Shown here piece by piece: positions 27,880 to 33,777 of a DNA stretch of 53,351 bases. Position 1 is the first letter of the stretch, and each line of letters starts with the position of its first letter. The stretch covers positions 1 through 53,351 of the forward strand of contig NZ_JAENWM010000016.1 in assembly GCF_016650035.1 (NCBI RefSeq), written 5' to 3'. The position numbers were made by a program, and so were the translations under genes. This DNA is from Clostridium sp. (lineage in GTDB: Bacteria > Bacillota > Clostridia > Clostridiales > Clostridiaceae). The notes below the pieces were generated by a model. The model made no database searches, was not told the DNA's origin, and saw nothing but the letters and a program-made list of their open reading frames with translations.

Positions 27880-29103
27880 TTAGAATTTAGGTAAAAGAAT
27901 TTTAGCAAATTGCATATTATCTAACTTATTTACTTTAATATAATTTAGTACATCAACTGTATAAGTTTTGTGATGTCCTATAATCTTTGAGAAAATTTGG
28001 ATAAATCCAACTATATCTTCTTTAGAATCCTCGTTATTATATAGATATTTCCCAACCAAATAAAATTTAATAAATGAGTATCTTGTCAAAAGCATAATAT
28101 ATCCATCAAATATAGATTCTGTTTCAGAAAATGGAAACATATTGTTATAAATAAAATTCACCAAGTAATTTTCAAAAATATAGCTATTATTATTTATAAA
28201 TTTCTCGGTGTAATCTTCAAATGTTTTTATATACAATTTTGCATTTATTTCCTCTTCTTCCTCAAGCTTGAATGCAACTATAATTTGCCTAGTATATTCC
28301 TTAAAAGAAAGACTGTCCACCTCCTTAGACACATTTAAGAACCCCAACATCTTTTTAAAAAAATCCATCTGAGCAATATAATTTGTTTGATTTTTTTCAT
28401 AAGTAACACTAACTGAATTTATATTATACTCTTTAATAAATTTAGGTACATTATTATAATTTTGTTTAGATTTTTTTTCTAATGTATTTAAAAATTCACC
28501 TAATATATAAAATCTTTGACTTAAGTCAAGTTTTCTATTTTTTATTATTTTAATACTCATATCTCTAATTTCTTTAAAATATTTTACCAGCGAATTATTG
28601 AATTTTTTAGATTTAGTATCAATATCACTTGATACTATATGTTTTTCCAGTTTTTCAGTACCTTCTTCAAATTCAATTCCTTCTTCTTTTAGTAAGATAA
28701 TTCTTGCTGCTTCTGGACATGCTACGTCAAGAGACATTTCATAAACTCCATCTACTATATTGATTATTCTAGGAAAAGATGTGCAAACATTTGAAAGATA
28801 TTCTTCCCCAAGCTTAGAATAAATAACACAATAATTTTCTTCATCTAAAAAAGCACACCTTTTTTCTCTTGTTAATTTTACTTTTCCATAATCTACATCA
28901 CTATTTAGATAATTATCATTATTATGGACATTTTTTTGAAACATTTTTTTCATTTCTTTATCTTGAACTTTATAATACTGTCTGAAGGTTATCTTATCAA
29001 TATCTATATCCCATCCAATACAACAGCTATCTTCACACTTTCCAGCTATACACTTAAATTCTTTAAAATAACTAGGATATCGTTTTTTTATATTTTTTCC
29101 CAT
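27880..29103 (-). CDS. fliB: Flagellin lysine-N-methylase FliB
   Basis: 407 aa. Start at MGKNIKKRYP, after AGGAAG at 6 nt. Family signatures: a Cys-rich N-terminus, FKCIAGKCEDSCCIGWDI (about 15-32), then CAFLDEENYCVIYSKLGEEYLS, CTSFPR and VACPEAARIILL. These Cys motifs suggest an Fe-S or metal site. FliB adds methyl groups to surface lysines of flagellin in Salmonella and clostridia. It is away from any flagellar gene in this window, so the assignment rests on sequence alone. Confidence 0.85.
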   Translation of the reverse strand: MGKNIKKRYPSYFKEFKCIAGKCEDSCCIGWDIDIDKITFRQYYKVQDKEMKKMFQKNVHNNDNYLNSDVDYGKVKLTREKRCAFLDEENYCVIYSKLGEEYLSNVCTSFPRIINIVDGVYEMSLDVACPEAARIILLKEEGIEFEEGTEKLEKHIVSSDIDTKSKKFNNSLVKYFKEIRDMSIKIIKNRKLDLSQRFYILGEFLNTLEKKSKQNYNNVPKFIKEYNINSVSVTYEKNQTNYIAQMDFFKKMLGFLNVSKEVDSLSFKEYTRQIIVAFKLEEEEEINAKLYIKTFEDYTEKFINNNSYIFENYLVNFIYNNMFPFSETESIFDGYIMLLTRYSFIKFYLVGKYLYNNEDSKEDIVGFIQIFSKIIGHHKTYTVDVLNYIKVNKLDNMQFAKILLPKF

Positions 29104-29430
29104 TGTATACTTCCTTTGCAAACAAATCACTTCAAGTTTTCTGTTTTATATTTATTTTACTATATTATTTTAAATTTGTCAGATGTGAAAACAACATACT
29201 AATTCACTCTATTATATAATATTTTAGCGAATCTTTCCATATGAATATTGTGTAAAATAAGATGCAGAAATTTCATAACAATGATGCCGGTACTGCGGTT
29301 ATTTGTTACTAACAGTGATTTAACAAACTGTGACCTTGTTTTAAATTTTAAAACTAACAGCTAAACAATACTTGCTAAATTTATAAGGATACTTTGAAAT
29401 GCTTAAGCCAAATTCATGGAATAAATACAC
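29104..29430. other. 327-bp intergenic region upstream of fliB
   Basis: Holds a possible fliB promoter (minus strand, CTGACA near 29185 and TAAAAT about 17 nt on). The rest, 29220-29430, is the 3' flank of the selenoprotein gene. I see no clear terminator, ORF or RNA. Confidence 0.4.
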
Positions 29431-29724
29431 CTAAAAGCTAATCTGTATGCCATCCACTTCCAGTTCCTTCATCCAGAGAAATTTTCTCAGGAATATATGC
29501 AACTTTTTGTTCTTAATTCGTGTATCTTTCCTGACGAATACACTTATATCGTAAGCTTTATACATATCATAATTATCTGCTATTGGAGGTTTGCCCAACT
29601 GAACTGTAGGGCTCTGTACCGCGCATCATCCCCCACTTGCGGACTTCACAAAAAGTGTTACTGAGTTATCTTTAGAGTGTTTTCTAATAAAATCAGCAGT
29701 ATTTTTCTCAATAATTATATTCAT
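29431..29724 (-). CDS. HesB-like 'CC/Se motif' selenoprotein with in-frame UGA (Sec33)
   Basis: 97 aa when UGA at 29626-29628 is read as selenocysteine. The ATG follows AAGGAG at 9 nt. The frame runs MNIIIEKNTADF... to SASGG-Sec-CAVQSP, then VQLGKPP, ISVFVRKD, KFLWMKELEVDGIQI and a TAG stop, without any other stop. The arrangement (G-G-Sec/Cys-Cys, P-x-V-x-x-GKP, a Tyr-rich region and a C-terminal beta strand VDGI) agrees with the short HesB-like CC/Se family, in which other members have Cys-Cys. Downstream of the UGA, GCCC/GGGC plus AC/GU form a stem with loop AGUUCA whose G lies 22 nt from the UGA, fitting bacterial SECIS rules. Function unknown, presumably thiol or metal redox. Translation requires SelA-D elsewhere in the genome. 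Confidence 0.8.
29593..29612 (-). promoter_or_regulatory. Candidate bacterial SECIS element
   Basis: On the mRNA strand: stem GCCC, a U:U mismatch and AC pairing with GU and GGGC; hexaloop AGUUCA with G as second loop base. The loop is about 21-26 nt after the UGA, in the range reported for SelB-binding hairpins. Confidence 0.6.
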
Positions 29725-29782
29725 AAATTACAACTCCTTTTCCTTTTCCTTTGCCATTCCCAAGGGATATCACGAGGTAAAT

Positions 29783-29808
29783 AAAACACTACATATTCTT
29801 AGTGTTTT
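29783..29808. terminator. Hairpin upstream of the selenoprotein gene
   Basis: Perfect 9-bp stem AAAACACTA / TAGTGTTTT with an 8-nt loop, 59 nt upstream of the selenoprotein ATG. It has T-rich flanks on both strands. Could be a terminator or a 5'-UTR structure. Confidence 0.45.
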
Positions 29809-29861
29809 ATTATTTATCTATGTTTTTATTATAGTTGATTATTATGAATAATTTATGAACA

Positions 29862-29886
29862 AATAACCCGTTCGCCTGTTTTCGAG
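29862..29886 (-). repeat. tRNA-Ser fragment (25 nt identical to tRNA-Ser CGA)
   Basis: 25 consecutive bases are identical to 46331-46355 of the intact tRNA-Ser, covering part of the anticodon arm, with the CGA anticodon, and the start of the variable arm. Flanks differ on both sides. A cloverleaf cannot form. Likely a relic of recombination at a tRNA gene. Confidence 0.75.
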
Positions 29887-29941
29887 TTAGGCTATCTACT
29901 TTCTCAGTGATACTGGCTAGCTTTCTTTATATCTAAAATCA

Positions 29942-29984
29942 TTAAGGGTTACAGCAACGAATAAATCATTGCTGTAACCCTTAA
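29942..29984 (-). terminator. Terminator of the peptide-ligase operon (minus strand)
   Basis: Perfect 16-bp stem TTAAGGGTTACAGCAA and its complement, with an 11-nt loop, 12 nt after the ATP-grasp stop. Confidence 0.88.
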
Positions 29985-29996
29985 TTAATTTTTTAA

Positions 29997-31265
29997 TTAT
30001 TTTTCCTCCATCTGTGGCAAGGCAATCAAATCTTCTACTGCTTTCTTTTCATTATTTGATATAAGTTTAAAAGAAATTTGTGAAGCTGCAAATTTTGCAT
30101 TGACTTTCGCTTCTTCAGCAGTATTACCTATTGCTATAACATATGCATATCTGTTTCCCATGGATAGCGGAGGTGTAAGAAGACCTCCTTTTCTTGGCTT
30201 TATATAAACTTTTTTCACTCCTGGGGATTTAAAAGCTTTATTTCTACCAGTAACTCTTTCAAGTATTCCTGATTCTGATACAGTCACATATTGAGCAAAC
30301 ACATTACTTGTATATTTAGGTTTAAAATTAGGTTTCTGTCCAATCAGCATTTTCAGGGTTTCTTTTACTAAGTTTATTCCAAGACCTGCTTTAATTAAAT
30401 CATTCATTCCACCACCGGAGATTCTAGGGTTGATTTCAACAAGCTTCCAAGTGTGGTTTACCAGTCGCATTTCTAAGTGACAAGGTCCATATTTTAGTCC
30501 ATGTTTACTTATAATAGTTTCCACTGCACTCTTTAGCTTATTATAAAAATCATCTTCTGGATGCATTAAAAGTTCATATCCTGTAATGATAAATCTTTCA
30601 CCAAAGGTAATTTCTTGTTTGAAAATTGCTATAATGTTAAGATTCTCCTCATTAACAATAGTTTCCACTAAATATTGAGGCCCATCTAAATATTCTTCAA
30701 TTAATATTGGTTCTTCTGGATATTTTCCAAACATCTTCTTACTGTTGTGATTGAATTCTTTATAACTAGTGATTTTTAAAACATCTTTTGAACCTGTGGA
30801 TTTAGGCGATTTCATAATGAATGGTAGATATTTTCTAACTTCAATTTTAGAAGGTATTAATCCTTCAGATAACATCACAAAAGCAGGAGCATAAGTAGTA
30901 CCAGAAAGAACCTCTCTAGAAGAAATTTTATTCAGCATTGTTCTAATAGCATCTGTAGTAAAATGATTTAGTCCAAATTCTTCAGACAGTAAAGCTGCAG
31001 TGTAACAATGAACATCTACAAAACTAGCAATTGCCAAAAGATCAAGTGCTTTTACAACCAGACTTCTTATAGCTTTTCTAATTTCTTCAATATTATCTAA
31101 ATCGCATAGAAGCATGAGGTGTACATCTGGGAACTCCGTACGTTGCTTAAGGAGGTTTTTCTTATCGGTTAGAAGTACAGTATAGTATCCTAGTTCATCT
31201 GCTGCCTTAATTGCCTCACGACTAGATCCTGATTTTTGAGTTCCTATAAATACAATTGTCTTCAT
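29997..31265 (-). CDS. ATP-grasp ligase (carboxylate-amine ligase type)
   Basis: 422 aa. N-terminal Rossmann-like pre-ATP-grasp domain (IVFIGTQKSGSSREAI), central ATP-grasp fold with FIMKSPKSTGSKDV as the glycine-rich loop, IEEYLDGPQYLVE, and the Mg-binding EINPRISGGG (about 275-284). The C-terminal domain resembles that of biotin-carboxylase-type ATP-grasp ligases. Such enzymes join a carboxylate to an amine via an acyl phosphate; the substrates are unknown. It lies 34 nt behind a Mur-ligase-like gene and ends a three-gene unit (YheC/D - Mur - ATP-grasp), a pairing reminiscent of the two catalytic halves of cyanophycin synthetase. Confidence 0.85.
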   Translation of the reverse strand: MKTIVFIGTQKSGSSREAIKAADELGYYTVLLTDKKNLLKQRTEFPDVHLMLLCDLDNIEEIRKAIRSLVVKALDLLAIASFVDVHCYTAALLSEEFGLNHFTTDAIRTMLNKISSREVLSGTTYAPAFVMLSEGLIPSKIEVRKYLPFIMKSPKSTGSKDVLKITSYKEFNHNSKKMFGKYPEEPILIEEYLDGPQYLVETIVNEENLNIIAIFKQEITFGERFIITGYELLMHPEDDFYNKLKSAVETIISKHGLKYGPCHLEMRLVNHTWKLVEINPRISGGGMNDLIKAGLGINLVKETLKMLIGQKPNFKPKYTSNVFAQYVTVSESGILERVTGRNKAFKSPGVKKVYIKPRKGGLLTPPLSMGNRYAYVIAIGNTAEEAKVNAKFAASQISFKLISNNEKKAVEDLIALPQMEEK

Positions 31266-31299
31266 ATAAATAACTCCTTTACATATATATAGTTATTCA

Positions 31300-32406
31300 T
31301 TAGTATATTTTGTAATAGTCACATAGAAAACATACGGTTTCATACATATTCAAACGACTAGCACCTTTTACTAGAATTGTTGTTCCGGGTTCTATCATAT
31401 TTACTAACTCACGATGCATTACTTTTCTATATAATGGAGTCTTATGACTAAGTTTATCTGCTGAAAAACCTGATGCTACTGCTCCAATTCCTATATTTAT
31501 AGAAATATTCCCATAGGTATAAAGGAAGTCAATACCTTTAGTTGCAACATACATCCCAAGTTCTTTGTGATATTCATCAATTTTATCACCTAATTCAGGC
31601 ATGCTCCCTAGAATAGCTATTTTCTTTTTCTTTCCTATGGCTGCTAACACATCTAATGCAGCTTTCATAGCAGGTGGATGAGCATGAACAGTATCGTCGA
31701 TAACAGTTATTCCATTTTGCAATCTATGAATATTTAATCTATGCTCCGGAATTTTAGCATTTTTAAGTCCATTTTGCATATCAATTAGAGAAAATCCTAG
31801 TTGATGTGCTACACCTATAGCAAATAGAGAATTATACACATTGTGTTTTCCTAGCATAGGACAAACAAATGAATGAACTTCCCCATCTAAATTCACATTA
31901 AAAGTCATTCCATCAAGGGTATATTCTACGTTTGTTCCACGATAATCTGAATCCACGTCAATTCCAACAGTGAAGAGCTTTCCGGTAAAAGTATTAATAG
32001 GAATAAGTTTAGAATTTTCATCATCAGCATTAATAAAAAATAAGCCGGAAGGATGCACACCTTTTAAAAGTTCAGATTTAGCAGCAGCAAGTTTTTCGAT
32101 ACTGCCCTCAAAATTACCAATATGAGCAAGGCCAATGCCCGTGATAATTCCTATATTTGGGCGCAGAATGTTACAATGTTCTGTAATAACTCCTGGGTAT
32201 GCCATACCGTATTCAAGCACAGCAGCTCGATGTATGAAACTAATTCTCTTTGCATGTTCTTTGGTTTTTTCAGTTGTATTATTATAGGTATTAGATTCAA
32301 ATACAACCCAGTTCTCTCTTAATATAGCAGCTAAAAGAGTCTTAACTGTAGTTTTGCCAGCACTGCCTGTAATTGCAATAATGGGTTTTTCACCATTTAA
32401 TAGCAT
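31300..32406 (-). CDS. Mur-ligase-family protein lacking the MurF N-terminal domain
   Basis: 368 aa. ATG at 32406 chosen, with GAGGTG 6 nt upstream; GTG at 32415 is possible. P-loop ITGSAGKTTVK begins at residue 13, so the usual N-terminal UDP-MurNAc-binding domain is absent. Central motifs GIAH-like GIGLAHIGNF, AKSELL and GKHNVYNSLFA, and C-terminal IDDTVHAHPPAM and LGSMPELGD, match MurF/MurE catalytic cores. ATP-dependent amide ligase, substrate not a normal UDP-MurNAc peptide. Starts 11 nt after the YheC/D stop, so translationally linked. Confidence 0.85.
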   Translation of the reverse strand: MLLNGEKPIIAITGSAGKTTVKTLLAAILRENWVVFESNTYNNTTEKTKEHAKRISFIHRAAVLEYGMAYPGVITEHCNILRPNIGIITGIGLAHIGNFEGSIEKLAAAKSELLKGVHPSGLFFINADDENSKLIPINTFTGKLFTVGIDVDSDYRGTNVEYTLDGMTFNVNLDGEVHSFVCPMLGKHNVYNSLFAIGVAHQLGFSLIDMQNGLKNAKIPEHRLNIHRLQNGITVIDDTVHAHPPAMKAALDVLAAIGKKKKIAILGSMPELGDKIDEYHKELGMYVATKGIDFLYTYGNISINIGIGAVASGFSADKLSHKTPLYRKVMHRELVNMIEPGTTILVKGASRLNMYETVCFLCDYYKIY

Positions 32407-32417
32407 GTGTTTCACCT

Positions 32418-33494
32418 CTATTCAGATTTGAGATTTTCTAACAATTGTTTATTTTCTTTTTCCTTTACCAAAAACATGGCATACCTTATTGTATTTATAA
32501 CTACATCTAATTCCAAATAAAAGGTAGGTGGACATCCTGGTCGCCAATTAATTTCGTAAAGCCATATTTTACGCATGTCATCAAGCCCCACATCAATTCC
32601 TAATTCGTCAATAGTTTCTGAAAATGTTTCCTGCTGAATCTTATCCATGTGTTCTGAAAGTTGTAGGGAAAAAACTTCTAAATATCGCTTAATATCATAA
32701 TACTCTTCACCAAATTCTTGTTGTAAAAAAGGTACAAGATAGTTGGTGGAACCTCCGCTATTTATATTTGATACAACACTTCCACTGCAACCAAAACGCG
32801 GATAGGTAGCAGTAATTACCCATTTACCCTCTCCATTTTTTTGAACATGAAGTCTAAGGTCATAGGAAATTCCATCCTTAGTTTTGCAATTAATATAGGG
32901 TTGAGCTAGATACAGATCTTCTCGTATTCTGTCCAAAACAAAATCCCGCATTTGCTCAAAGCTGAAAATGCGCTTTTCAGGTCCAATTAATACATGATAT
33001 TTTTCGTTAACCGTTTCTATGAAGTTTACTCCCTGACCTTTATGGCCATTTACTGGTTTAAATATAATTTTGCCGTATATCCTTAAAATCCTAAAAAAAG
33101 CTTTTGTAGAGTGGATATATTCAGAAGGAATGAGATACTTAGTGAATTCATCATATTTCTCTAGTCTTCGTTGAACCCTCATCTTATTTCCTATTGAATT
33201 TGTAGTAAAAGGAATTTCTTTTCTTAATGCATTTATTATTTCGCTAGATTTTGCTAACTTTTCTGGACTTCCTGTATTATATATTACATCCGGAAAAGAA
33301 CTTTCAGTTTCTTGCCAAATACCATCTTTATAAATGTAACCACTAATTTTCCTCTCATCAAAGTTTACTGATCTTGGAGAAAAATATAAGAGTTCTGCTC
33401 CTTCTGCCATTGCAACTGCTGCGTAAGCATAGGATTTTTGTACAGTTCGAGGATCTTTACGATGGTGCAGCATTCCTATCAAAATCAAAAACAT
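32418..33494 (-). CDS. YheC/YheD-family ATP-grasp protein
   Basis: About 358 aa. Exact start uncertain: ATG 33494 is close to AAGGGG, TTG 33488 has better spacing. Family marks: GMLHHRKDPRTV, IIFKPVNGHKGQGV (ATP-grasp loop), YDLRLHVQKNGEGKW, and YEINWRPGCPPT as the metal-binding end. B. subtilis YheC and YheD are endospore coat-associated proteins, and similar genes recur near Mur-like ligases in spore formers. First gene of the minus-strand ligase unit, divergent from the NlpC/P60 gene. Confidence 0.88.
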   Translation of the reverse strand: MFLILIGMLHHRKDPRTVQKSYAYAAVAMAEGAELLYFSPRSVNFDERKISGYIYKDGIWQETESSFPDVIYNTGSPEKLAKSSEIINALRKEIPFTTNSIGNKMRVQRRLEKYDEFTKYLIPSEYIHSTKAFFRILRIYGKIIFKPVNGHKGQGVNFIETVNEKYHVLIGPEKRIFSFEQMRDFVLDRIREDLYLAQPYINCKTKDGISYDLRLHVQKNGEGKWVITATYPRFGCSGSVVSNINSGGSTNYLVPFLQQEFGEEYYDIKRYLEVFSLQLSEHMDKIQQETFSETIDELGIDVGLDDMRKIWLYEINWRPGCPPTFYLELDVVINTIRYAMFLVKEKENKQLLENLKSE

Positions 33495-33777
33495 CACCCC
33501 TTAGGTTCTTTCCAGGGTATAGAATACAATACCCCCATGAACCTAGTACATTATATGCAGTGATACATAATTTTGATAAAGATAAAATACATTTTTTTTA
33601 TGGTTCTTAGAAAGATTACGGAAACTAGTGAAATACTGGGAAACAGTTTCATTTCAATATTTCTCATTATTACCAATAATTATGAATTGAATAAGGGTTT
33701 ATCCCATGTTACAATTTTTATACAGATGTAATTGAAAATCACTTTAATTACGTCTAAATAATATTTGGAGGTTATTT

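Follow-up and report, generated by a model that had tools for sequence, protein, structure and literature searches.

A hidden selenoprotein gene of the CC/Se-motif family in Clostridium, and relatives with adjacent in-frame UGA codons

We asked whether an apparently empty gap in a Clostridium sp. contig holds a gene that a conventional list of open reading frames would miss. The DNA analyzed, here called the window, is a stretch of 53,351 nucleotides (NZ_JAENWM010000016.1, positions 1 to 53,351). The list of reading frames of at least 60 amino acids leaves its minus strand empty between the start of a FliB-like gene at 29130 and the end of an ATP-grasp gene at 29997. A preliminary description, made from the letters alone, had placed a hidden selenoprotein gene in this gap at 29431..29724. 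Its coordinates were right; it left the strand unstated, and the gene lies on the minus strand. Read there from 29724 to 29431, the sequence has the composition described, with a ribosome site, an ATG, 32 sense codons, UGA, TGC, 63 further sense codons and TAG, all in one frame. The features that the argument uses are as follows.

29431 to 29724, minus strand: probable selenoprotein gene of the CC/Se-motif family, 97 codons with Sec33 counted, ending in TAG
29593 to 29612, minus strand: putative bacterial SECIS hairpin, arms GCCCUAC and GUUGGGC with one U-U mismatch, loop AGUUCA
29626 to 29628, minus strand: in-frame UGA, predicted Sec33, followed by UGC (Cys34), motif ASGG-U-C-AVQ
29734 to 29739, minus strand: ribosome-binding site AAGGAG, 9 nt 5' of the ATG, read directly
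29941 to 29985, minus strand: terminator-like 20-bp stem 3' of the upstream ATP-grasp gene, consensus match only

The plus strand of 29431-29724, read in the same frame, gave no sequence resembling the family identified below and had its UGA elsewhere, and was rejected as a gene. Downstream of the selenoprotein gene, at 27880-29130 on the minus strand, lies the FliB-like flagellin lysine-N-methylase gene (NF038110, 355 bits). Upstream, within 29997-33497 on the same strand, an ATP-grasp/L-amino-acid-ligase-like gene is preceded by two genes whose products, judged by eye, resemble a MurF-type ligase and another ATP-grasp enzyme; together these are perhaps a peptide-ligase cluster. The terminator-like stem suggests that transcription of the selenoprotein gene is separate from that of the ATP-grasp gene. 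A loose-threshold Rfam search of 29000-30000 returned four matches, all far below their gathering scores, and plasmid and phage collections gave no match.

Translated with UGA as Sec, the 97-residue window protein matched the NCBIfam family NF041239, 'CC/Se motif family (seleno)protein', through residues 1-92, scoring 66.2 bits where the curated cut-off is 40, and its Sec33-Cys34 pair supplies the Cys-Cys or Sec that the family motif requires. The CC/Se-motif name given in the preliminary description was correct. NF041239 was the only match at E up to 1; neither TIGR01911, the HesB-like selenoprotein, nor any Pfam family at the same limit, PF01521 included, matched the window protein. The epithet 'HesB-like' used in the same description holds only in part: the family is distantly homologous to HesB/IscA proteins, as discussed below, but it is distinct from the HesB-like selenoprotein of TIGR01911. 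The window gene is an additional member of a family that is already in print and functionally uncharacterized. An 18-residue match (L040) from a scan of genome contigs with the window protein was judged spurious and left unused.

Homologues carry either Sec or Cys at the UGA site, and their reading frame continues past it. A homologue from the same genus (L015), 72% identical, has UGA at the same codon and has kept both frame and hairpin. After the UGA, the two genes differ by a dN of 0.13 and a dS of 0.93, and the frame beyond the UGA is under purifying selection. UGA and Cys forms of the family both occur in our samples, namely 98 genomes (the genome of the window and its relatives) and 391 genomes of the class (the class sample), of which 60 have selB. 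Among 58 family loci that we read, all 34 UGA forms have a Cys at most five residues from the Sec, and 21 of the 24 non-UGA forms have a vicinal CC. The motif appears among relatives as CC, UC, CU, CxU, CxxU and UU.

Decoding of UGA as Sec calls for dedicated machinery, and the genome, an assembly of 3.97 Mb in 167 contigs, encodes it. On contig C130, selA (TIGR00474, 623.5 bits, over cut-off) precedes selB (over cut-off), a tRNA-Sec gene directly follows selB, and selD, with one in-frame TGA of its own, lies just upstream. It had been predicted that this organism keeps its Sec genes, with a lack of selB or selC named as evidence to the contrary; the four genes lie together.

An association of UGA forms with this machinery was also visible across the class sample. 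Every genome with a UGA form has selB (25/25), compared with 5 of 12 genomes that have non-UGA forms only (Fisher p 8e-5), with family matches accepted to an E of 0.001 and many of these scoring below the curated threshold of NF041239. One of the 12, G185, holds a partial match without the motif, and its omission leaves 4 of 11 with selB. That match (L068, on contig C158) starts past the motif position, has neither UGA nor CC, and is perhaps a gene remnant. In a second, hand-picked set of ten genomes from a phylum sample, chosen since their match lacked UGA, nine have selB; a UGA form occurs as well in one of the ten (G566). Beyond the class sample, then, UGA and non-UGA forms are not told apart by the presence of selB.

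We next consider the hairpin. The loop of a bacterial SECIS obeys a distance rule with respect to the UGA that precedes it. A stem with loop AGUUCA had been claimed at SECIS distance, and such a hairpin is present at 29612-29593, its loop beginning 20 nt after the UGA. Considered alone it is moderately unusual and not exceptional: its folding z-score is -2.48 for an isolated 23-nt piece, but once flanks are included it does not surpass shuffled sequence (z -0.16 at 43 nt; z 0.44 at 53 nt, a length at which another structure folds best), and 1163 of 20000 synonymous recodings of the window sequence pair equally well.

It is the comparison across relatives that places the hairpin above chance. 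At the register of the window hairpin, 21 UGA forms make 104 of 147 possible pairs, against 69.7 ± 4.6 under a synonymous-codon null that reached 104 in none of 5000 trials, whereas 15 Cys forms make 53 of 105 pairs against a null of 53.0. These groups were chosen by hand: the 34 UGA loci were divided into 21 of window type and 10 of a second, CGU type, with L025, L026 and L032 in neither, and 15 of the 24 non-UGA loci were counted, while L010, L025, L034 and L068, which are partial or lack the pair, were dropped before alignment. Among 19 distinct sequences the covariation score was 0.307, compared with 0.165 after shuffling and at most 0.131 at slid registers, and 22 cells were changed on both sides, compared with 10.8 ± 2.6 after shuffling; two of the five covariation measures (pairs with both-side change, and further pair types) did no better than shuffles. 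The hairpin is conserved in aligned UGA forms beyond what codon constraint would give, and is at the null in Cys forms.

Registers differ among subfamilies. Single-Sec members place the loop either 20 nt after the UGA, as in the window, or 23 nt after it (such as L018 and L035). The CGU subfamily makes only 19 of 70 pairs at the window-type register, which was rejected for this group; its own hairpin lies at a different place. The form L043:1501-1782, close to the window gene and without UGA, retains all seven hairpin pairs around a different loop, AATCCT, and may carry the fossil of a lost Sec site.

Could the UGA be something other than a Sec codon? If it were a true stop, the gene would be a decaying pseudogene and the frame beyond the UGA a relic, an account with which a mismatched hairpin, unexceptional on its own, would agree. 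That a congener has kept UGA, frame and hairpin, that selection has acted on the codons past the UGA, and that selD, selA, selB and tRNA-Sec persist in the genome all speak against decay, which we consider highly improbable. Read-through by another route, whether by near-cognate Trp or by frameshift, found no support in our analysis. It sits poorly with the constant presence of selB beside UGA forms in the class sample, with a hairpin that those forms conserve and the 15 counted Cys forms do not, and with the relatives that have Cys at or beside the UGA position, and we give it scarcely any credence at all. The gene at 29431..29724 thus very probably encodes, as a single gene, a functional selenoprotein of family NF041239 (CC/Se motif), a degree of confidence that covers the selenoprotein reading and not the biochemical role. 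Codon 33 would be read as Sec under the direction of the hairpin just downstream, with SelA, SelB, tRNA-Sec and SelD. As such, it represents a well-supported hidden Sec gene that a plain list of reading frames had missed, and the family offers a clean comparative demonstration of a covarying hairpin kept in UGA forms and not in Cys forms.

The same genome holds a second Sec gene of this kind (L008:1441-1731, contig C57), a distant paralogue with the motif SCGG-U-G that scores 25.7 bits against NF041239, under the cut-off. Its subfamily of 11 loci has a hairpin of its own at another register, with 63 of 66 pairs formed against 37.1 ± 3.2 under the null (0/5000). In another genome, G052, three family copies occur close together on contig C9, and the two that were read (L010 and L034) have lost the CC pair, with GCF and GRI at this place.

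Relatives with two adjacent in-frame UGA codons extend the range of the motif further. We read 22 such UU genes from 20 genomes (L079-L087, L099-L108, L131, L137 and L148), each with TGATGA followed by an open frame. Nine family matches in the class sample contained two TGAs, and all nine fetched loci read UU, adjacent and in frame. A search of the phylum sample (398 genomes) with a UU profile gave twelve rows with two TGAs, ten of which read UU (L099-L108); the eleventh, in G534, was read as UU gene L137, and the twelfth, in G546, was rejected because it is a single-Sec gene that ends at the second TGA. L131, L137 and L148 came from two scans for the family. The UU proteins align with the family of the window protein at an hhalign probability of 98.85% (E 4e-17, 79 columns), and all 19 that were scanned match NF041239 at E up to 0.01.

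Several observations are consistent with both UGAs being decoded. Past the UU, silent sites have diverged and amino acids are conserved, as between L082 and L148 (dN 0.14, dS 2.07), with silent sites saturated in two of the six pairs compared. In 20 of the 22 genes a hairpin is found at the window register, 20 nt past the second UGA, and these 20 form 120 of 140 pairs against 86.3 ± 4.9 (0/5000), a count that leaves out L083 and L137, which form 2 of 7 pairs at this register. In the class sample, selB is present in each of the 8 genomes with a UU gene, and so it is in all 10 further UU genomes tested, with G842 and G845 outside these counts. Since single-Sec members use distances of both 20 and 23 nt, a single hairpin could serve both codons: with its loop 20 nt past the second UGA and 23 nt past the first, it would direct two successive Sec insertions. 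We think it likely, from these sequence comparisons, that the active site of the family is a chalcogen pair whose members are interchangeable and can both be Sec, and that the UU genes give rise to a Sec-Sec protein. If UU is decoded as read, a single hairpin lets bacteria insert two consecutive Sec; this would bear directly on the recycling of SelB and on how strictly the distance from UGA to hairpin is kept, and would open to study a Sec-Sec site for redox chemistry or metal binding. With one site occurring as CC, UC, CU and UU, the family is in itself a natural experiment on the role of a Cys pair.

The surroundings of the UU genes hint at a partner. An aldehyde:ferredoxin oxidoreductase gene lies near 11 of the 22 UU genes (loci L101-L107, L131, L137, L160 and L164), within 1.5 kb in ten cases, and in the flanks (up to 1.5 kb) of none of 58 non-UU loci. 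The corresponding Fisher p of 4e-7 ignores kinship, and since two groups of related genomes account for 8 of the 11, the association amounts to about three separate cases. The oxidoreductase genes themselves are of three distant types, about 30% alike. This pattern hints that UU proteins may act with this tungsten enzyme or its substrates; a literature search linking selenoproteins with aldehyde ferredoxin oxidoreductase and tungsten found nothing related by title or abstract. In one group of UU loci, an [FeFe]-hydrogenase-like gene lies downstream. For the single-Sec genes, 1.5-kb flanks held no neighbor genes in common outside close kin, so genomic context gives no function for them; upstream genes shared within one family look like plain synteny, and a conserved operon was rejected.

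What, then, might the window protein do? Profile comparison relates the family to PF01521 (HesB-like) proteins (hhalign 96.1%, 87 columns), and no other Pfam family is matched as often by its members, with PF01521 hits for 14 of 31 at E up to 1 and a best E of 1.3e-5. A comparison family of PF01521 proteins (A4, built from ten PF01521 matches less L072) matches IscA/SufA structures, and the Sec of the HesB-like protein L070 (GIGUGGP) aligns with the CC/Se pair. Searched against PDB, profile A5 found no IscA chain, and profiles A1 and A5 found no credible relative among solved structures; A5 also hit a capsid-protein fusion (E 0.0027), which was disbelieved. A single-sequence structure prediction of the window protein reached a pLDDT of 39, too low for fold assignment, and a search of its own genome for PF01521 at E 1e-6 gave no match. 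A less strongly supported conclusion is that the window protein may be a small IscA/HesB-related domain, the relation being distant.

Carriers of the IscA type have a first ligand Cys and further Cys ligands near the C-terminus. In the window protein the sole Cys is Cys34, and because it has no other we infer a chalcogen-pair site on an IscA-like domain, with Sec33-Cys34 placed where IscA-type proteins have their first ligand and with none of the further ligands. Sec33 and Cys34 could form a reversible selenenylsulfide, or a pair that binds soft metals or persulfide, and would not make a classical Fe-S scaffold. The main functional alternative is that the protein is an A-type iron-sulfur carrier like IscA, with Sec as cluster ligand. 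The distant homology to IscA/HesB and the aligned Sec of L070 lean toward such a carrier, as do two single-Sec relatives with the motif C-U (L089 and L093) in which, as in Fe-S carriers, a further CxC stands near the C-terminus; these two are the exceptions among 111 family proteins read, the other 109, the window protein included, having no C-terminal Cys pair. With Cys34 as its only Cys, the window protein seems an unlikely carrier of this kind. For the chalcogen-pair site, we regard a redox or sulfur/selenium-handling role as roughly an even prospect, and metal or metalloid binding as possible but rather doubtful.

How does the window protein compare with known systems? A 2026 review (PMC13188914) lists NF041239 in its Table 1 as a known predicted selenoprotein family, a hypothetical protein in Moorella thermoacetica with one Sec and the motif CxxU. 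The window protein resembles this family in exceeding its cut-off, in its small size and in having a Cys or Sec pair, and differs from the table entry in that its motif is U-C. The same table, in which some rows are without a motif, gives no adjacent UU motif, and it enters the HesB-like selenoprotein TIGR01911 as a separate family. To that protein the CC/Se family is linked by distant homology to PF01521 proteins and by the aligned Sec of L070, whereas the window protein does not match TIGR01911. The IscA/SufA carriers of PF01521 are similar in that PF01521 is the Pfam family that CC/Se members match most often, but the window protein has neither a Pfam match nor a C-terminal Cys.

For the UU relatives, we found no report of bacterial Sec-Sec by title or abstract, an earlier mention in Haft and Gwadz 2023 or Haft and Tolstoy 2025 being possible; a bacterial Sec-Sec family is absent from the literature searched, and the only precedent found is algal. 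This is PDI_e, with the motif GUGUU, described in PMC7539508 as the first selenoprotein reported with two consecutive Sec. The bacterial UU relatives share with it the two consecutive Sec predicted here. PDI_e belongs to a eukaryotic PDI subfamily, whereas the UU relatives are bacterial, belong to the CC/Se family and, in 20 of the 22 genes, carry a local hairpin inside the reading frame.
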